From contig MPDC01000024.1 of the NCBI GenBank assembly GCA_001874255.1, positions 1 through 64,000 of the forward strand: a stretch of DNA of 64,000 bases, in the 5' to 3' direction. A program made the position numbers and the translations under genes. Shown in pieces: positions 8,715-64,000 of this stretch; the first letter of the stretch is position 1; every line of letters begins with the position of its first letter. The stretch is from Alphaproteobacteria bacterium MedPE-SWcel (GTDB taxonomy: Bacteria; Pseudomonadota; Alphaproteobacteria; Rhodobacterales; Rhodobacteraceae). A model generated the notes under the pieces. It worked only from the letters and a program-made list of their open reading frames with translations, did not search any database and was not told the DNA's origin.

Positions 8715-9656
8715 ATGAGCGACGCCAGCCTCAACGCAAGCATGATCCGCGAAGATGACGCCTCCTTTGGCGATTATTTCGCATTGCTGAAACCGCGGGT
8801 GATGTCGCTTGTGGTCTTTACCGCATTTGTCGGCCTGCTGGCGGCCCCCGTGGGGGTGCATCCGGTCATCGGGTTCTCGGCCATCCTGTTCATCGCCATC
8901 GGTGGCGGCGCCTCCGGGGCGCTGAACATGTGGTGGGATGCAGACATTGATCAGGTGATGAAACGCACCAAAACGCGGCCGATTCCCGCCGGCAAGGTCG
9001 ACAAGGGCGAGGCGCTGAGCCTCGGTCTGGCGCTTTCGGGCCTGTCGGTCATCATGTTGGCGCTGGCGACCAATATCTTTGCCGGGGCCTTTCTCGCCTT
9101 CACGATCTTTTTCTATGTGGTGATCTATACCATGTGGCTCAAACGGGCGACGCCGCAGAATATCGTGATCGGCGGGGCGGCGGGGGCCTTTCCGCCGGTG
9201 ATCGGCTGGATCGCCGCCACCGGGTCCATGTCCATCGAACCCTGGCTGATGTTTGCCCTGACCTTCCTGTGGACGCCGCCGCATTTCTGGGCGCTGGCCC
9301 TGTTCATGCGCAACGACTATGACATGGCCGATGTGCCGATGCTGACGGTGACCCACGGCCGCCGTTCCACCCGCAACCACATCCTGGCCTATACGGTGAT
9401 CCTGGCGATCTTTGCGATCGCGACGGCGTTCACCGGCGTCGGTGGGCCGATCTACCTGGCAGTGGCCGTCTTGCTGAACCTGCTGTTCCTGAAAGGCGCC
9501 GTGCAGATCTGGCGCCGCAATGAGGACCTCTGCGAAGCCGATAATTTCAGGGTCGAGCGGTCTTTCTTCAAGCTTTCTCTGCTCTATCTGTTCCTGCACT
9601 TCGGCGCGATTCTCGCGGAAGCGCTGTTGAAACCCTATGGCCTGGGAGGCTGGTAA
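8715..9656 (+). CDS. ctaB: protohaem IX farnesyltransferase
   Basis: Makes haem O by adding a farnesyl group to haem B, the first step towards haem A of the aa3 oxidase. It is an integral membrane UbiA-family prenyltransferase with about nine hydrophobic segments. The diagnostic aspartate-rich sequence MWWDADIDQVMKRTKTRP (about residues 75-92) and the second loop motif around FLWTPPHFWALAL and NDYDMADVPM are present. The 313-residue length fits. A GC-rich hairpin (stem GGCCGCGC) in the 124-base spacer after coxB may set relative expression. It lies in the oxidase cluster, four bases before the next small gene. Confidence 0.96.
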   Translation: MSDASLNASMIREDDASFGDYFALLKPRVMSLVVFTAFVGLLAAPVGVHPVIGFSAILFIAIGGGASGALNMWWDADIDQVMKRTKTRPIPAGKVDKGEALSLGLALSGLSVIMLALATNIFAGAFLAFTIFFYVVIYTMWLKRATPQNIVIGGAAGAFPPVIGWIAATGSMSIEPWLMFALTFLWTPPHFWALALFMRNDYDMADVPMLTVTHGRRSTRNHILAYTVILAIFAIATAFTGVGGPIYLAVAVLLNLLFLKGAVQIWRRNEDLCEADNFRVERSFFKLSLLYLFLHFGAILAEALLKPYGLGGW

Positions 9657-9659
9657 CTG

Positions 9660-9827
9660 ATGAGCCTGCGCAAGGAACATGAACTCCATTCGCGTCGCAA
9701 GGGGCGCAACCTCGGGGTCGGGCTGCTGCTGGGGGCCTTTGTTGTGCTCGTGCTGTCGCTGACGATGGTCAAGGTCACATCCAGCAATTTCGCCTGGCCC
9801 GAAATCGACAGCGGAGAGCAGAACTGA
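9660..9827 (+). CDS. small cytochrome oxidase-associated membrane protein (CoxF-like)
   Basis: A 55-residue protein with a basic N-terminus (MSLRKEHELHSRRKGRN) and one transmembrane helix (VGLLLGAFVVLVLSLTMV), then a short exported tail. Its ATG overlaps the end of the ctaB region, and its stop codon shares one base with the ctaG start (TGATG), so translation is coupled. A short gene of this kind between ctaB and ctaG is usual in Rhodobacterales and Paracoccus and is annotated as CoxF or an oxidase assembly protein. That name rests on position, size and topology; the biochemical role is not established by the sequence. Confidence 0.78.
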   Translation: MSLRKEHELHSRRKGRNLGVGLLLGAFVVLVLSLTMVKVTSSNFAWPEIDSGEQN

Positions 9828-10414
9828 TGGCCCTGAACGGCCCCCAAAAAACGGTGGTTCAGCTGGTCGGCGTCGTCGTGGTCATGGGCGCGCTCGCCTG
9901 GGCCTCGGTGCCGTTTTACAACTGGTTTTGCCGAGTGACCGGTTTTGGCGGTGTCACCCAGGTGGCCGCGGGCGATTCTGACACCGTGCTGGATCAGACC
10001 ATCAAGGTCCGATTCGACGCCTCCAAGGATCGCGGCATGCCGTGGGAGTTCAAACCTGTTGAACGGATCATGGAACTGAAGATCGGCGAAACCGGTCTTG
10101 CCTTCTACGAGGCATACAACCCGACCGACCGGCCCGTTGCGGGCCAGGCGTCTTATAACGTGGCACCTTATTCGGCGGGTTATTACTTTGAAAAGATACA
10201 GTGTTTCTGCTTTAACGAGCAGGTGCTGCAACCGGGGGAGCGGGTGATGATGCCCGTGACCTTCTTCGTGGACCCCGAGATCGTCGAGGACCCGGAGGCA
10301 AAATATGTGCATACGATCACCTTGTCGTACACATTTCACGAGATCGATCTGCCAGAGGGCATGGCCGCCCTCGACACCGGACAAATGTCCGGGGCAGAAA
10401 CAGAACTGAACTAA
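9827..10414 (+). CDS. ctaG: cytochrome c oxidase assembly protein CtaG (Cox11)
   Basis: Copper chaperone that delivers Cu(I) to the CuB site of subunit I. A single N-terminal helix (VVQLVGVVVVMGALAWASV) anchors it, and the rest is a periplasmic immunoglobulin-like domain. The copper-binding pair is visible as CFCFNEQ (about residues 126-132). An additional Cys is seen in YNWFCRVTGFGG, also typical of Cox11. The 195-residue length is normal. Its start overlaps the stop of the preceding small gene, and ctaE follows after 25 bases. Confidence 0.96.
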   Translation: MALNGPQKTVVQLVGVVVVMGALAWASVPFYNWFCRVTGFGGVTQVAAGDSDTVLDQTIKVRFDASKDRGMPWEFKPVERIMELKIGETGLAFYEAYNPTDRPVAGQASYNVAPYSAGYYFEKIQCFCFNEQVLQPGERVMMPVTFFVDPEIVEDPEAKYVHTITLSYTFHEIDLPEGMAALDTGQMSGAETELN

Positions 10415-10439
10415 GGCCGCTTTGGTGAGGGACACTTAA

Positions 10440-11252
10440 ATGGCGCATGCTAAAAATCACGACTTTCACATCCTGCCGCCGTCGATCTGGCCGCTGCTAA
10501 GCGCTGTCGGCGCCTTTGTCATGCTGTACGGCGCGGTGCGCTGGATGCATGAAATGAGCTCCTGGATCTTCTGGGCCGGTCTGGTCGCCGTGCTCTACTC
10601 CGCTTTCTGCTGGTGGGCCGAGACCGTGGCCGAGAACAAGGCAGGCGACCATACGCCGGTTGTTCTGATCGGCCTTCGCTACGGGTTCATCCTGTTCGTC
10701 ATGTCCGAGGTGATGTTCTTTTTCGCCTGGTTCTGGTCGTTCTTCAAACACGCCATCTATCCGATGGAGGCCTATGTCGGGACCGAATATGTGGCCCCGG
10801 CGATCCACGCGGTTGACCCGTTCCACCTGCCGCTGATCAACACGCTGGTGCTGTTGATCTCCGGATGTGCCGTGACCTGGGCCCACCATGCCCTGGTGCA
10901 TGAAAACGACCGCAAGGGGCTGATCAATGGTCTGGCCTTCGGCATCGTGCTGGGGGTCTTCTTCACCATCCTGCAGGGCTATGAATATGCCGAGCTGATC
11001 CTGCATGAGGGCTGGGAATTCGGCGGCGATGAATTCTACTCCAACTTCTTCATGGCGACGGGGTTCCACGGTTTCCACGTGGTGCTCGGCACCATCTTCC
11101 TGACCGTATGTCTGATCCGGGCGATGAAGGGGGACTTCACCCCGAAACAGCACGCCGGTTTCGAGATGGCAGCCTGGTACTGGCACTTCGTCGATGTGGT
11201 CTGGCTGTTCCTGTTCGTCGCCGTCTACATCTGGGGCGCATCCGCCCTGTAA
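10440..11252 (+). CDS. ctaE: cytochrome c oxidase subunit III
   Basis: Subunit III stabilises the aa3 oxidase and supports proton uptake. It has seven hydrophobic helices and family motifs such as [23 protein letters not shown]-like ([14 protein letters not shown]), [14 protein letters not shown] and a C-terminal [13 protein letters not shown]. The N-terminus [15 protein letters not shown] is typical of Rhodobacterales. At 270 residues the length is right. A strong hairpin ending in TTTGT follows about 95 bases downstream, which suggests that the structural cox cluster ends here and surf1 is transcribed separately or by read-through. Confidence 0.97.
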
Positions 11253-11345
11253 TCCGGATCGGGCTGGGGCAGGCGATGGGTCTGGTCCCAATGTACCGGG
11301 TACATGATTGCGGTTTTCCTTTCCGCAGACAGGACGTATCTAACG

Positions 11346-11376
11346 AGGCGCGCGGGGATGACCCTGCGCGCCTTTG
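11346..11376 (+). terminator. intrinsic terminator after ctaE
   Basis: A 12-bp stem with one G-T pair (AGGCGCGCGGGG / CCCTGCGCGCCT) and the 4-base loop ATGA is followed by TTTGT. It lies between ctaE and the chosen start of the SURF1 gene, and supports a start for that gene downstream of it. Confidence 0.55.
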
Positions 11377-11444
11377 TGCATGACCTGCCTCAATCCGACC
11401 CGCCACGGGCCGGGCAGGCGGGGCAACCGGATCAGGAGCGACCA

Positions 11445-12116
11445 ATGGGACGGGTGATCTTTCTCTGCCTGATAGGGGGGCTGGGGGCGGCGATGCTGCT
11501 GTCCCTCGGCATCTGGCAGCTGCAGCGCCTGGCGTGGAAACGCGATATCCTCGCCACCATTGAACACCGCATTGCAGCCGATCCTGTGGCGCTGCCCTCC
11601 ACCCCCGATCCCGAGGCCGACAAATACCGGCCGGTCAGGGTCACGGGACAGTATGACCCGGCCGAGATCCACGTGCTGACCTCGGTCAAGGATCTGGGGC
11701 CGGGGTATCGGATCATCGCCGCCTTTGTCACCGAGACGGGGCGGCGCATCATGGTCGACCGGGGCTTTGTCAAAAGTCGCGACCGCGAGACCCGGCGCCC
11801 CCTGGGGCAGGCGGAGCTGATCGGAAACCTGCACTGGCCGGATGAAGTCGACGGCTACACGCCCGCGCCGGAGATCGATGCCAATATCTGGTACGCCCGT
11901 GACGTGCCCCACATGGCAGAGGTTCTGGCGACCGAACCGTTGCTGGTGGTGCTGCGCGGCGCGTCCGATGATGCCTCCGCGCCGCGGGTGCTGCCGGTCT
12001 CGACCCGGACCATTGCCAACGATCATCTGCAATATGCCATCACCTGGTTCTCTCTGGCCCTGATCTGGGTCACCATGACGGCCACTTTTCTTCTGCGTAC
12101 GCGCGCCAAAACCTGA
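11445..12116 (+). CDS. SURF1 family cytochrome oxidase assembly protein
   Basis: SURF1 (Shy1) proteins help insert haem A into subunit I. It has the family topology: one N-terminal helix (IFLCLIGGLGAAMLLSLG) running into GIWQLQRLAWK, a periplasmic domain with RPVRVTGQYD and a second helix at the end (YAITWFSLALIWVTMTATF). The ATG at 11445 has AGGAGCG nine bases upstream and begins just before the first helix. Starting 47 codons earlier would add an unrelated stretch across a terminator-like hairpin. The protein is then 223 residues. The gene lies 14 bases before thrC, as in relatives. Confidence 0.92.
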   Translation: MGRVIFLCLIGGLGAAMLLSLGIWQLQRLAWKRDILATIEHRIAADPVALPSTPDPEADKYRPVRVTGQYDPAEIHVLTSVKDLGPGYRIIAAFVTETGRRIMVDRGFVKSRDRETRRPLGQAELIGNLHWPDEVDGYTPAPEIDANIWYARDVPHMAEVLATEPLLVVLRGASDDASAPRVLPVSTRTIANDHLQYAITWFSLALIWVTMTATFLLRTRAKT

Positions 12117-58144: not shown

Positions 58145-59773
58145 TCACCAAGTCATAGACAGTGCGGTCGTGGCGGAATTGGTAGACGCGCAGCGTTGAG
58201 GTCGCTGTGGGGTAACACCCGTGGAAGTTCGAGTCTTCTCGACCGCACCATTTTTCAACTGCCTCTGTTGAAACACCCCTAAAGCCTTGAATGGTAAGGC
58301 TATGGACGGTGTTCTAGCTCCCGCATTTCGATGATACGCAATCCGGTCCGTAAAGGCCAATCTAAGCAGTGTTCTGCGTAGTGTCATATCGCCACTTTCC
58401 CATAGTTTCCAAGGACTTGAGAGGAACTTGAGAGAGAGTTCTAGCATGTCTTCTAGCCTCCCCGCTGCTGGCACCCCATTTTGGGCATTTTCCATCAAGC
58501 GAAGCTTGTCTTTTTCGAGGCCAGCAATCTTGGCCTCATAGGCTCCAATCACTGTATCATTGCTCGTGGCCATGATCCGACCCAACAGTGATTCAATCTG
58601 TGTTTCAATTTGGGTGATTTGCCGCTTGGCAGAGGCAACTGCCTCCTCCGCCTGAGACAGGCGCGCTTGCCATGCGTGTTGGAACATCACCTTTGCCAAC
58701 GCAAACAGCGAAGCGCTCGGCTGTAGCGTTTTCACAACCTCACCAAAATCAGCCTCCAAGCGATCACGCGGGATCGACTTGCCATAGCTTGGACAGCCTT
58801 TGGTCTGGCAGAGATAATAGGGATAGCGTTTGTACTTCCCCTTAGCCCAAGAGGAGCGCAAAGGCACACAACAATCCCCACAGGTCACAAAACCACGAAG
58901 CGCGAAATCCTCTCCGATATCTTTGCGAGCGGGCGCATAGGCCGTCTCACGACGCGCCTTCTGGATCTTATCGAATGTCTTGAGTGAGATCAGCGGTTCA
59001 TGCTGCCCCTTGAGAAAACTCAGGCCGTAAGTTTCACTACAAATATACCCAGCATATAGAGGCTGCGACAGCATATCAGAAATCCGTTGCTGGATGATCT
59101 GGCCATGCTTGTTGCGTGGAAAATCCGGACACGTTTCAAAGAAGCGTTTGACCTCAACTTGTGTCTGGAACCGACCGGAGGCAAACCCCTCCAAACCTTC
59201 CTTGACCAAGCTCGCCAGTGGCTCATCCGGGATCAGAAGCTTCCCGTGCCCTTTGATCGTCTTGTAGCGATATCCAGTGGGCGCATTATGCACCCAATAT
59301 CCCGACTGCATGCGGGCTTTCATTTTCTGAGAGACCTGACGCCCGTTTTGTTTACGCTCCAAGGCACCTTGGGCGGCCATAATGGTTTCGATAAACTCGC
59401 CTTCTGGCGTGTCTTCAAACTTGAAGTTCAGGCATTCGATTTCAGCTTTGCGTTTGCGGAAGGCTTCCCTCAGATCGAGATGGAAGCGCGTGTCGCGAGC
59501 AAATCGTTTCAGATCATCAAAGATCACCACAAAGCGGGTATCGGGTTGCGCATCCAAGAATGACAGTAAAGCCACCATACCAGGGCGCTTCATAAAATCC
59601 CCCCCGCCTGTGAAGGTATCTGGGAAGACCGCAGCCACATGATAGCCCTTGCTCACGGCATATTCCCGACATCGTGTCTCTTGAGACTGCAACCCATGCC
59701 CGTCAGCCTCCTGCGCGCGCGATGAGACCCTGCAATAGATGATGGCTTGTTTGTTTTGCTGCGTATCTTTCAT
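58145..59773 (-). CDS. large serine recombinase (island integrase)
   Basis: A 542-residue site-specific recombinase. The catalytic resolvase domain starts at YCRVSSRAQ (nucleophile Ser, residue 17), with DDLKRFARD and GALERKQNGRQ further on. A recombinase domain follows, then a zinc ribbon (CGDC...CQTKGC, about residues 295-325) and a coiled coil (SQAEEAVASAKRQITQIETQIESLL). The last roughly 30 codons, ending ATTALSMTW, are the antisense of the tRNA-Leu gene and some flanking bases, so this end comes from the host chromosome. It probably integrates and excises the island at this tRNA. The upstream small gene overlaps its start (ATGA). Confidence 0.93.
   Translation of the reverse strand: MKDTQQNKQAIIYCRVSSRAQEADGHGLQSQETRCREYAVSKGYHVAAVFPDTFTGGGDFMKRPGMVALLSFLDAQPDTRFVVIFDDLKRFARDTRFHLDLREAFRKRKAEIECLNFKFEDTPEGEFIETIMAAQGALERKQNGRQVSQKMKARMQSGYWVHNAPTGYRYKTIKGHGKLLIPDEPLASLVKEGLEGFASGRFQTQVEVKRFFETCPDFPRNKHGQIIQQRISDMLSQPLYAGYICSETYGLSFLKGQHEPLISLKTFDKIQKARRETAYAPARKDIGEDFALRGFVTCGDCCVPLRSSWAKGKYKRYPYYLCQTKGCPSYGKSIPRDRLEADFGEVVKTLQPSASLFALAKVMFQHAWQARLSQAEEAVASAKRQITQIETQIESLLGRIMATSNDTVIGAYEAKIAGLEKDKLRLMENAQNGVPAAGRLEDMLELSLKFLSSPWKLWESGDMTLRRTLLRLAFTDRIAYHRNAGARTPSIALPFKALGVFQQRQLKNGAVEKTRTSTGVTPQRPQRCASTNSATTALSMTW
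58164..58250 (+). tRNA. tRNA-Leu (anticodon GAG)
   Basis: An 87-base cloverleaf with 3'-CCA encoded. Acceptor arms GCGGTCG / CGACCGC pair fully; the D-arm contains AATTGGTAGACGC; the anticodon stem CAGCG / CGCTG encloses loop TTGAGGT with anticodon GAG (reads CUC/CUU). A long variable arm (TGGGGTAACACCCGTG) is typical of leucine tRNAs, and the T-loop is TTCGAGT. Its 3' end is the likely integration site of the island that follows. Confidence 0.96.
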
Positions 59774-61056: not shown

Positions 61057-61992
61057 TTACTGCCCAGCCTGAAAAGGTTTGAGGCGGTCATTGATCAATA
61101 CAAGCTTCGCCCATTCCCTCGCCCCAGAGGTTTTAAGCTGAGATAATTGATCAGAGGCAGCAAGCTTGGCAGTGGCGATATCTTGAAAGAAATCAGCCGG
61201 ATCACCCAAATCGGCCCGGATCGTATCCGCCTCAACCACACGCGCGAGATTCACTGCGTCAAAGAAGCAAGGCAACGTCACCGCACGCCCAAAGGCTTGG
61301 ATTTCATCGGCTGATGGGATGTCATCAGGATCAACGGCTTTGGCTCCAGCCTGCTTGGCCTTCACTTGCGCGCGGATCAACGGCATCTCAGTGACATGTC
61401 CCAATAGCTGAAAGATACGTGTTGCAGCTTTTGGATGTGTCAAACTCTCCTCGTTGTACTTGGCATCCGCACGCTCAATGAGCATCATCATCCCAGAAAT
61501 TGCCGTGATCTTGCATCGCAGGTCCTCCCAACCCTCTGTTGAGTAAGCCTCAAGTAACAGATCCGCCGCATCATGATCAGCTTGTAACTCAAGACATTGC
61601 GGTGTCTCAGCCCGCATATCCACAGGTAATTTGAGCATAGGACCAAGCTGGCGATCTGCACGTCTGGCAATCCCAAAGGCAGGTGTATTAGGGGTTTCTG
61701 AGATTTGAAAATCACCGAGCAAGTCGAAGTGGTTCAGCTCAATATGTTGAAACTCATGCAAGAACAGCCAAACGAGAGAGTTGTAGGCCATCTGCTCAGG
61801 CTCAGACGAAAACGGGATACCAATACCTGCGGAAAAGGTTTCATCATGAACGGCGTCAGCCCAGAGGGCCTCAATGCGTTCAACCAAACCTTCACTGATC
61901 TGAATGATGTGCTGCGCCCCACTGCGAGTGACGCCAGCATAGAATGCTTCACCAGCGATGACTTCGATCACACTTTGATTGATTTGACCCAT
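61057..61992 (-). CDS. Lit-like zinc metallopeptidase (U49 type)
   Basis: A 311-residue protein. The zinc motif is FLHEFQHIELNH (HExxH, near residue 80), preceded by AYNSLVW; the third-ligand region reads ELQADHDAADLLL, and a later THPKAATRIFQLL follows. The same three blocks in the same order are found in E. coli Lit (WILHHEISHVVLQH, EREADSHATKWIL, THPAAYERIYSN, recalled from the family). Lit cleaves EF-Tu when triggered by a T4 capsid peptide, stopping phage growth. Target and trigger of this protein are unknown. I start at the ATG and not at a TTG two codons before. It is a single gene on the island. Confidence 0.8.
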   Translation of the reverse strand: MGQINQSVIEVIAGEAFYAGVTRSGAQHIIQISEGLVERIEALWADAVHDETFSAGIGIPFSSEPEQMAYNSLVWLFLHEFQHIELNHFDLLGDFQISETPNTPAFGIARRADRQLGPMLKLPVDMRAETPQCLELQADHDAADLLLEAYSTEGWEDLRCKITAISGMMMLIERADAKYNEESLTHPKAATRIFQLLGHVTEMPLIRAQVKAKQAGAKAVDPDDIPSADEIQAFGRAVTLPCFFDAVNLARVVEADTIRADLGDPADFFQDIATAKLAASDQLSQLKTSGAREWAKLVLINDRLKPFQAGQ

Positions 61993-62216
61993 ATTCAATC
62001 ACTTGTGCTGGTTTCATTGCTGAGGAGCAATATAGACACACTGGACGACCGCGAAGATCGTCCCAGAAACTGCAAGTTGCAGCATCACTACGGTTACTTT
62101 GCACTAATCACCAATAATGCCTAGCTTGCACTGTTTCGTTACGAATTAGTAATGCTCACTCAGAATGAGCGATCACTTCACTGTGGGCAAATAAAGGTGA
62201 ATTCCAAAATGAGATT

Positions 62217-62510
62217 TTACATAGCTTCTAGTTTTGGCAATAGGTTTCTCTCCATGTATTCAATGGCTTCTTTCCCATCTTTGGTGATTTTCCATTCGAA
62301 GGAAGAAGTCTTCCCGACAAATCCATCCAGAACACATCTATTAAATAGCGCATCAAGCGTTTCAGGTGATTTGGCAAAATTTATGCTGCCATACATAAGT
62401 TCAGATTCGCGTTCCATATCCTTTCGAATTTCGGCTTTTAACGCGCCATCACTGTACTTAACTAAAGTTTTCAAAAGTAAGTGTCTTTGTATTGTGAAGT
62501 CGGTACACAT
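62217..62510 (-). CDS. small winged-helix-like protein
   Basis: A 97-residue protein starting MCTDFTIQRHLLLKTLV. The order of helices, then DALFNRCVLDGFVGKTSSFEWKITKDGKEAIEY, which looks like a recognition helix and a beta-wing ending in an ITxxGxxxI motif, suggests a winged-helix domain. Its ATG lies one base behind the stop of the upstream phosphohydrolase gene, with AAGGA at good spacing, so the two form one operon. It may be its regulator or partner. AT-rich codon use differs from the chromosome. Confidence 0.65.
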   Translation of the reverse strand: MCTDFTIQRHLLLKTLVKYSDGALKAEIRKDMERESELMYGSINFAKSPETLDALFNRCVLDGFVGKTSSFEWKITKDGKEAIEYMERNLLPKLEAM

Positions 62511-62511
62511 T

Positions 62512-64000
62512 TTATTTTCCTTTCGTGGTTTCTTCATATTTCTTCCGAATGATGTCTTTTGCTTCATTCTCGGCAATGGATCTTTCTTTTGAGTTTTGCG
62601 ATTTCATATCGCGACCCACAGCAAAAACAAATGACAGTCTGTCATCCCGCTCACGCCCTGCCATAGACTGTAGAGCTGGAGAGACTGCCGCAACTCTACT
62701 ATTGTCCCCTTCGGCACTCACGATCCATGTCTCTTCTTCAAACGTACGGTTCATCTCGTATTTTCCGTTACTGCCTTTAAGTTTGGCGTTGTATACTTTT
62801 GCGCCACTAGTGGCCCAAAAGATGACGACGGGATGACCCAACTCGTTTAGGCTTTTACTCCAAACTCGTTTGCGCAGCTCGTGGACTGTTTCCTCAGAAT
62901 ATCGAAGCAAGTGTACTGCAAGTTTCTTAATTCTATTTGTGTCAACATCAGTCTTTATGCTTTTTTCCACAACTTTTTTAAGACTATTGTCTTTAAATAG
63001 CGTAACTATTTTAGAAAAATCCCGGAACAGAACTATGTCTGCAAGGTATCGTATGAGCTGCGATGCCTCGAAGCTTCCATCTTCTCTACTTTTCAACAAC
63101 TCTTCGGCCTCTTTTTTGCTGGTGTATTCCTTCAGTTCAAATAAGAGAGACCTCAGTGTTGCATCATCTATCTTTTCAACGGGCCCAGAAGCCGCTGGGA
63201 TCAGGTCCAAAATATTTCCATCTGGATCTCTTTTTATGTATCCATAGCGCTCTATGGCATCTGCAAGTTCTGTTTCGGGGTAAATAAATGCGAAGGCGAG
63301 CAGTGATGATATTAACTCTTCAACACACTTGTTTGACCTAAAAGATGTTCTGTTGAATATCTGATATTTGTAAGATTGATATCTCGATTCAAAGAATTGC
63401 TCTAAGGAATCTGTGGCGCGATGAAAGAATCCAAATGAGAAGAGAGATTCATCATCATTGGATACGAGAAGTGAAAATTTGCTTATCTTTTCACAGTCGA
63501 AAAGACCAGTCTTTAACCCTGCCTCCAAGCTATCTCTAATCGTGTAGTCAATGCGATCTCCGTCAACCTCACCATCAACTAATTGGCGCACTGCAAACAA
63601 AAACGAATGCTTGTGAAGTGGTTTTTTTGCTTCACCGTGCGCCCTTTCGCTTTCGTCAGGGGAGATGGAGGATGATAATATTATTGATAACGACAAATGG
63701 TGCAATAAAAGGCCGTATTTGTTTATTTGCTGCTGCTCGGCTTGATTGAAATTTGCAGCAGGTTCGGAGTAGCGTGAGATGAAGATATTATATAAGGAAA
63801 TGCCTCTTGTTTCATGAAGATCTTTGCTCTTTGAGACAGATTGAACGGCCTCTTCGGAGACATCTAGTAATGTGGCGAAGTTTCGGAAGTAATCTTTACT
63901 TTGACCTCCATCTTCCAGTCCCGTGAAGTCATCTCTGCGCTTAATCGAAAGGTCGCGTGCATGACTTACCAAATCTTGATTGGCACCTAGGCTTCTTAAT
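62512..64000 (-). CDS. HD/SAMHD1-type phosphohydrolase-like protein, 5' end outside window
   Basis: About 495 residues are visible; the frame stays open to the window edge, so the true start is beyond it. The block GEVDGDRIDYTIRDSLEAGL (about 140 residues in), followed by GLFDCEKISKF and then SLEQFFESRYQSYKYQIFNR, is the conserved DxDRxDY...RDs...G...D region and Y-helix of COG1078 HD hydrolases (SAMHD1/YdhJ type). The HD metal ligands themselves would be upstream, outside the view. The C-terminal 250 residues are unrecognised. It is coupled to a small winged-helix gene. A nucleotide-acting defence enzyme is a plausible inference. Confidence 0.7.
   Translation of the reverse strand, partial: LRSLGANQDLVSHARDLSIKRRDDFTGLEDGGQSKDYFRNFATLLDVSEEAVQSVSKSKDLHETRGISLYNIFISRYSEPAANFNQAEQQQINKYGLLLHHLSLSIILSSSISPDESERAHGEAKKPLHKHSFLFAVRQLVDGEVDGDRIDYTIRDSLEAGLKTGLFDCEKISKFSLLVSNDDESLFSFGFFHRATDSLEQFFESRYQSYKYQIFNRTSFRSNKCVEELISSLLAFAFIYPETELADAIERYGYIKRDPDGNILDLIPAASGPVEKIDDATLRSLLFELKEYTSKKEAEELLKSREDGSFEASQLIRYLADIVLFRDFSKIVTLFKDNSLKKVVEKSIKTDVDTNRIKKLAVHLLRYSEETVHELRKRVWSKSLNELGHPVVIFWATSGAKVYNAKLKGSNGKYEMNRTFEEETWIVSAEGDNSRVAAVSPALQSMAGRERDDRLSFVFAVGRDMKSQNSKERSIAENEAKDIIRKKYEETTKGK

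Follow-up and report, generated by a model that had tools for sequence, protein, structure and literature searches.

The locus

The window, as we call the whole stretch of 64,000 nucleotides under analysis, comes from a genome of 4.08 Mb and is part of its contig 17, which has 65,018 bases and extends 1,018 bases beyond it. At this end lie two genes on the minus strand. The first encodes a SAMHD1-type HD phosphohydrolase, a relative of SAMHD1, which in humans acts against viruses; the C-terminal 495 of its 704 codons are in the window (62512..64000). Read from the contig DNA past the window end, the complete gene occupies contig positions 62512-64626 and encodes 704 amino acids. The second (62217..62510) encodes a small winged-helix partner of 97 amino acids with the N-terminus Met-Cys. 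It starts one nucleotide past the HD stop, with its ATG at 62508-62510 and the sequence AAAGGA upstream. A sequence-only reading of the window had placed both reading frames here, the small one directly behind the HD gene, and had called the two AT-rich. All of this is borne out by the one-base gap, the shared strand and the AAAGGA before the ATG, and by a G+C content of 41% over 62217-64000 and of 42% over the full length of the HD gene, compared with 63% for window positions 1-58144.

Beside the pair lies the gene of a peptidase with the motif HEFQH (61057..61998, minus strand), a constant gene of the island family described below and probably not a component of the pair. It is matched by the Lit models of PADLOC (9.9e-6) and NCBIfam (5.2e-5), the latter with 22.6 bits against a cut-off of 274; because it stays under this cut-off, we call it Lit-like only. 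Its earlier description as a Lit-like protease thus holds for the HExxH motif, but the profile matches are weak and the curated cut-off for Lit is not reached. Convergent to it is P0004 (60273..61052, plus strand), a conserved island gene for which Pfam, NCBIfam and PHROGs gave no match and PADLOC a weak one to GajB (0.034); it is possibly a regulator or partner of the Lit-like peptidase. The small conserved gene P0006 (59770..60084, minus strand), recognised like P0004 by synteny, lies just upstream of a gene for a large serine recombinase (58145..59773, minus strand; Pfam Resolvase 3.8e-24, Zn_ribbon_recom and Recombinase). The 3' end of the recombinase gene reads through a tRNA-Leu (GAG) gene (58164..58250, plus strand), the probable attachment site. 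The related island of Poseidonocella pacifica has a tRNA-Leu (GAG) at the corresponding position.

Sister islands

The Lit-like protein was matched at 15 places in 9 of 388 genomes of the family. Twelve such loci were examined, namely the window, the Poseidonocella locus (L010) and ten 20-kb stretches that cover 10 of the 13 remaining places. The recombinase is present in ten of the twelve, the window included, while L063 and L069 have none within 20 kb. This leaves nine sister islands besides the window (L010, L060-L062 and L064-L068), in which P0006 is found nine times out of nine and P0004 eight times (not in L068). In L068 the Lit-like gene appears to be broken in pieces (positions 9021-10474).

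Strongly matched defence genes were found among the selected frames scanned in six of the nine sister islands: Pycsar in L010, AbiH and PD-T7-1 in L061, Hachiman in L062 and L064, SIR2 in L066, and Gabija GajA and GajB in L067. They share the Lit-like neighbourhood with the HD pair, but their proteins are unrelated to it. In L065, a helicase-like protein and a large ATPase gave weaker matches; the one frame scanned in L060 gave no match, and the one frame checked in L068 no Pfam match. In both the window and L010, the HD pair comes beyond the Lit-like gene, on the side that Hachiman, SIR2 and PD-T7-1 occupy in four sisters; further cargo separates the Lit-like gene from P0004 in L061, L065 and L067. 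Recombinase islands with such frequent defence cargo are a practical place to seek new defence systems.

The Lit-like gene was considered as a component of the system and rejected. It adjoins the pair in two loci, the window and Poseidonocella, and in no others; no relative was found at 1e-3 in the locus DNA of the other eight pair loci or of L020, and the gene also occurs in islands where a search of 20 kb gave no relative of the pair.

The HD protein

The full-length protein contains the H...HD...D metal ligands and the HE/H-E catalytic residues of SAMHD1-like (COG1078) dNTP triphosphohydrolases. The metal and catalytic residues (R61/H64, H188/D189, H192, H197, E200, H271/E272 and D355/D357) are invariant in all eight aligned proteins, and the HD ligands in the 5' part, which the sequence-only reading had to do without, are all present. 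The DxDRxDY/RD signature that it had reported reads VDGDRIDYTIRDS. Pfam HD matches the protein at 0.0033, under its cut-off, and the PADLOC dGTPase model matches weakly (0.014); among protein families, PHROG 35128, to which no function is assigned, matches best (1e-23). The nearest solved structures by sequence are SAMHD1-type enzymes (9mr6 at 9.8e-13), and a profile search with the HD family yielded 2hek (2.2e-28) and SAMHD1 (2.7e-25). By this homology, the protein is predicted to be a SAMHD1/COG1078-type dNTP triphosphohydrolase, an enzyme class that splits dNTPs into nucleoside and triphosphate. Two ordinary dGTPases are encoded elsewhere in the same genome.

Tal and colleagues, cited in PMC12265719, reportedly described, in 2022, single-gene defence dGTPases, HD hydrolases thought to deplete deoxynucleotides. 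Such enzymes match Dgt-type models and are not known to have a fixed partner. The window protein is likewise an HD hydrolase, but it falls far below the curated cut-off of TIGR01353 (Dgt-type dGTPase), with 16.7 bits (E 0.004) against 152.35.

An AlphaFold2 model of the protein (8-row alignment, pLDDT 77.3, pTM 0.81) predicts the SAMHD1 fold. Its Foldseek matches include the Enterococcus faecalis HD protein EF1143 (4lrl, with dGTP and dTTP; 2e-11), fungal and human SAMHD1, the worm (C. elegans) orthologue, BT4208 and 9mr6. Among the 50 matches listed, the TM-scores by query length are modest (0.36-0.43), which is expected given the insertions in the protein. The best matches in a library of viral protein models are giant-virus HD phosphohydrolases (8.5e-9). 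The model aligns with solved SAMHD1-type enzymes across about 700 columns, gaps included, which does not fit the earlier description of the C-terminus as unrecognised. Compared with an ordinary relative of 510 amino acids (L041), the protein is longer by 71 residues between the first His and HD, by 54 between HD and DxD, and by 65 after DxD. Since most of the extra length is thus within the core and just a part of it at the C-terminus, the long C-terminal extension proposed before has to be corrected: some added length does follow DxD, but the extension was overstated.

The paired clade

The pair was found in nine other loci, from Alpha- and Gammaproteobacteria, Campylobacterota, Planctomycetota and one viral contig. 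In a tree of 22 HD proteins, the ten paired proteins and that of a further viral contig, L020, stand on one side of a branch with 100/99 support; the tree has several long branches, and joins between long branches, that of the clade included, may be false. Ten of 20 viral loci, near-copies or fragments (L026-L030, L032-L034, L037, L039), and loci without a full HD frame (L007-L009) were left out of it. HD and HE motifs are present in all 11 clade members.

In the ten clade members with readable downstream DNA, a frame of 71-112 amino acids always follows the HD gene on the same strand, at offsets of -14 to +151 bases from the HD stop; in three of the ten pairs the two genes overlap. At L020, the eleventh member, the DNA ends at the HD stop, which is overlapped by an ATG behind GGAGG. 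The control was a set of 11 ordinary HD loci, seven of whose proteins are close kin of one another: two have any small same-strand frame in the same search range (-25 to +160 bases, fixed after the pairs had been seen), and none has a partner-like frame. When each partner was left out of the profile in turn, the profile put the true partner at the top of its locus in seven of ten cases, six of them with E-values of 0.0081 or better and L016 at 0.1. The partners of L018 and L021 were not recovered, and the true frame of L040 came second at 1.4; in these three, kinship is assigned by position only, plus the Met-Cys start in two. The L018 partner has a doubtful start codon, a TTG that comes 151 bases after the HD stop. 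The pairing of the HD gene with a small frame is more than chance.

The clade also differs from ordinary relatives within the HD protein. Between the first His and HD, its 11 members have 100-131 residues, against 36-53 in 11 ordinary HD proteins. At the residue aligned to SAMHD1 Arg145, ten of the 11 members have His (L018 has Arg), and none of the 11 others does. The equivalents of D137 and Q142 are kept in all eight aligned proteins, and L020, L021 and L040 have Asn at the Q142 position. SAMHD1 and the bacterial enzymes EF1143 and BT4208, which we take to be members of the COG1078 family, have the predicted fold and the catalytic residues in common with the window protein; the wide spacing, the His and the fixed small partner set the clade apart from them. 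D137, Q142, R145 and R451 read guanine in the A1 pocket, and PMC7854603 describes a high degree of conservation for them among prokaryotic SAMHD1-like enzymes. Given this conservation, the change from Arg145 to His suggests that activation is altered in the clade; with His in place of a guanine-reading Arg, either substrate or activation may be different.

The small partner

Modelling of the window's partner gave a confident structure (pLDDT 91.1) with the order of elements H-H-H-H-E-E-H; the helices precede a two-stranded wing, as in a winged-helix protein. The solved structures nearest to it are mostly winged-helix proteins, but they match weakly (E 0.018 or worse). Profile, model and fold searches gave no nucleotidyltransferase match for the 97 amino acids, and in a search up to E 1 the partner occurs once in its own genome.

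The closest folds, again weakly matched, are the DNA-binding proteins F93, PadR and MarR, as might be expected if the HD protein were an autonomous allosteric defence dGTPase or dNTPase and the winged-helix protein merely a DNA-binding autorepressor of the operon. We consider this explanation rather unlikely, though still the foremost of the alternatives to the gated module proposed below. Across the pairs, the net charge of the partner ranges from -6 to +5 and its pI from 4.5 to 10, so that the partners do not have in common the positive charge that DNA binding would call for, unlike in a conserved DNA binder. The partner is moreover the second gene, overlapping the first in three of ten pairs, and the HD protein has lost the allosteric Arg145 in ten of 11 clade members. 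Since this charge is not conserved, we also rejected a nuclease role in which the partner would act as DNA-binding guide.

Eight of the ten partners start with Met-Cys (the window, L005, L013, L014, L015, L016, L021 and L040), and in seven of these eight the cysteine is the only one. The exceptions are Poseidonocella (Met-His) and Phycisphaerae, where the start is uncertain; the cut-off partner frame of L020 would start with Met-Phe. For L013 and L015, in which an alternative upstream ATG is present, starts were chosen for their resemblance to those of the other partners and for their distance from the purine-rich stretch. A Met before Cys is removed by methionine aminopeptidase. We infer that Cys2 of the partner has a function.

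Distribution and genomic contexts

The HD gene is rare. Of the 394 family genomes searched, three carry it: the window's own, G071 (Poseidonocella pacifica) and G391 (Pseudorhodobacter sp. E13). Among 398 genomes of the phylum, the search returned the own full copy and four short matches, all within frames whose length (489-537 amino acids) is ordinary, and a profile search at E 1e-20 only the own copy. The single protein found no relative in a scan of genome contigs; an alignment of three orthologues found seven loci, two of which belong to those orthologues. A first scan of viral sequences gave nothing, and one with an eight-row alignment 20 loci; 19 of these have an HD frame (not L039), and the wide spacing is seen only in L020 and L021.

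Plasmids and phages were searched by tblastn. The matches inspected, on plasmids of Nitrosophilus labii, Klebsiella, Methylocystis, Fusobacterium, Sinorhizobium and Acaryochloris, comprise one true member, that of Nitrosophilus labii; further matches lie on Vibrio, Listeria and Paenibacillus plasmids and in two Klebsiella phages. The Klebsiella, Methylocystis, Fusobacterium (HD spacing 43) and Sinorhizobium plasmids encode HD proteins of ordinary length, and that of Acaryochloris has an annotated HD gene of 122 codons; no partner-like gene was seen on any of these five (for Acaryochloris, from the annotation).

Other HD dGTPases are housekeeping enzymes, and the Hoeflea pair is surrounded by metabolic genes, which would suit a part in housekeeping nucleotide metabolism. 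We disfavour this reading and give it next to no credence: the HD gene is present in three of 394 family genomes, the genome has its two ordinary dGTPases elsewhere, and 41% G+C stands beside a region of 63%. A place mainly in core genomes and housekeeping contexts, which the sequence-only reading had named as evidence against a defence role, is thus not what was seen.

Mobile elements, or restriction or Pycsar genes alongside, accompany seven of the ten pairs. The pair of the window lies in the serine-recombinase island at tRNA-Leu, and that of Poseidonocella in the same island type, where a relaxase is also present. The Pseudorhodobacter pair (L011:6269-8882) has a T2SSE/VirB11-type ATPase on one side and a T4SS coupling protein on the other, with a relaxase nearby; the Roseicyclus pair (L015) has a relaxase on one side, and on the other a cytosine methyltransferase and an ATPase with a weak type II restriction match. 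The Bauldia pair stands behind a phage-type integrase at tRNA-Phe, the Nitrosophilus pair on a plasmid with an N-6 methylase and TniQ, and the L021 pair on an 84.7-kb viral contig. Reading the frames of the locus DNA by eye revealed no recognisable mobile or defence gene at the other three pairs (Hoeflea, Granulosicoccus and Phycisphaerae).

Just upstream of the Poseidonocella pair lie Pycsar genes for the cyclase PycC (2e-177), an effector (4e-149) and an E2 protein (2e-144). This neighbourhood, together with the altered A1-site residue, would suit an HD protein that cleaves another nucleotide (cyclic or signalling) or a nucleic acid, for example in tuning the neighbouring Pycsar. Such a role seems very improbable to us: at 1e-3, the locus DNA of eight other pairs yielded no relative of the Poseidonocella Pycsar cyclase (the window's contig being outside this search), and the closest folds are dNTPases.

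Function of the pair

Since known systems of phage defence stand at the corresponding place in sister islands, the pair is probably an undescribed defence system. The context, with the Pycsar genes at the Poseidonocella pair and the defence systems in the sister islands, argues strongly by association for this role. The account that we favour, with somewhat better than even confidence, is a mobile two-gene anti-phage module in which a dNTP hydrolase is gated by a bound winged-helix partner. Infection would trigger the HD protein, which would then deplete deoxynucleotides, and the depletion would halt replication of phage DNA. The co-translated partner would bind the HD protein and gate its activity, either holding it off in uninfected cells or relaying an infection signal. 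Co-translation and the absence of a shared positive charge suiting DNA binding suggest such a protein regulator.

Of the systems described, Clover comes nearest; it consists of the dGTPase CloA, regulated by dTTP and p3diT, and the nucleotidyltransferase CloB with an [D/E]h[D/E] active site (PMC12265719). Like the present pair, it combines an HD-superfamily dNTPase and a dedicated regulator in two genes within a defence context. CloB, however, is a Pol-beta nucleotidyltransferase, whereas the partner here has 71-112 amino acids and, in the window, a winged-helix fold; because its partner differs from that described for Clover, the pair is not Clover. By analogy it may work like Clover, and the partner would then stand in for the inhibitory nucleotide made by CloB. 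The titles and abstract openings returned by searches of the open-access literature, a body that does not cover subscription journals, described no HD plus winged-helix pair.

A more specific version of the gated module, which we hold to be doubtful, makes the partner an inhibitory sensor subunit whose exposed Cys2 would dock at or near the HD metal site, or would sense infection chemically, and which would be released on attack. If the Cys2 plug were true, deoxynucleotide depletion would be controlled by a protein, not by the nucleotide signals of SAMHD1 and Clover.

Two co-translated genes, often on mobile elements, are also what one would expect of a toxin-antitoxin or island-stabilising module, in which a toxic dNTPase is neutralised by its partner and kept for maintenance of the element. 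A paired dNTPase can indeed be toxic without its regulator, as CloA of Clover is (PMC12265719). The partner gene, however, comes after the effector gene, and defence systems are found as the neighbour in Poseidonocella and as cargo in six of nine sister islands. We judge this explanation improbable; it overlaps strongly with the gated module.

Nucleotide-depleting immune enzymes are toxic if always on, which makes their control a central question. A SAMHD1-type clade with a changed guanine-sensing residue and a fixed protein partner would be a second, genetically separable solution beside the nucleotide signalling of Clover, and the pair is small enough for direct cloning and testing.

Additional observations

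Although Hoeflea and Pseudorhodobacter are members of separate families and have the pair in different contexts, their HD proteins share 71% identity, an indication of transfer. The Pseudorhodobacter pair is inserted in a conjugation cluster (L011:6269-8882). On the viral contig L020, which is outside the count of seven in ten, the divergent HD member (positions 9986-11932) stands behind holin and amidase genes, a place usual for prophage cargo. Beside the Roseicyclus pair (L015:3243-9251), the cytosine methyltransferase, the ATPase (weak REase_II match) and a protein of 639 amino acids form one operon, which looks like an unusual restriction-type module.
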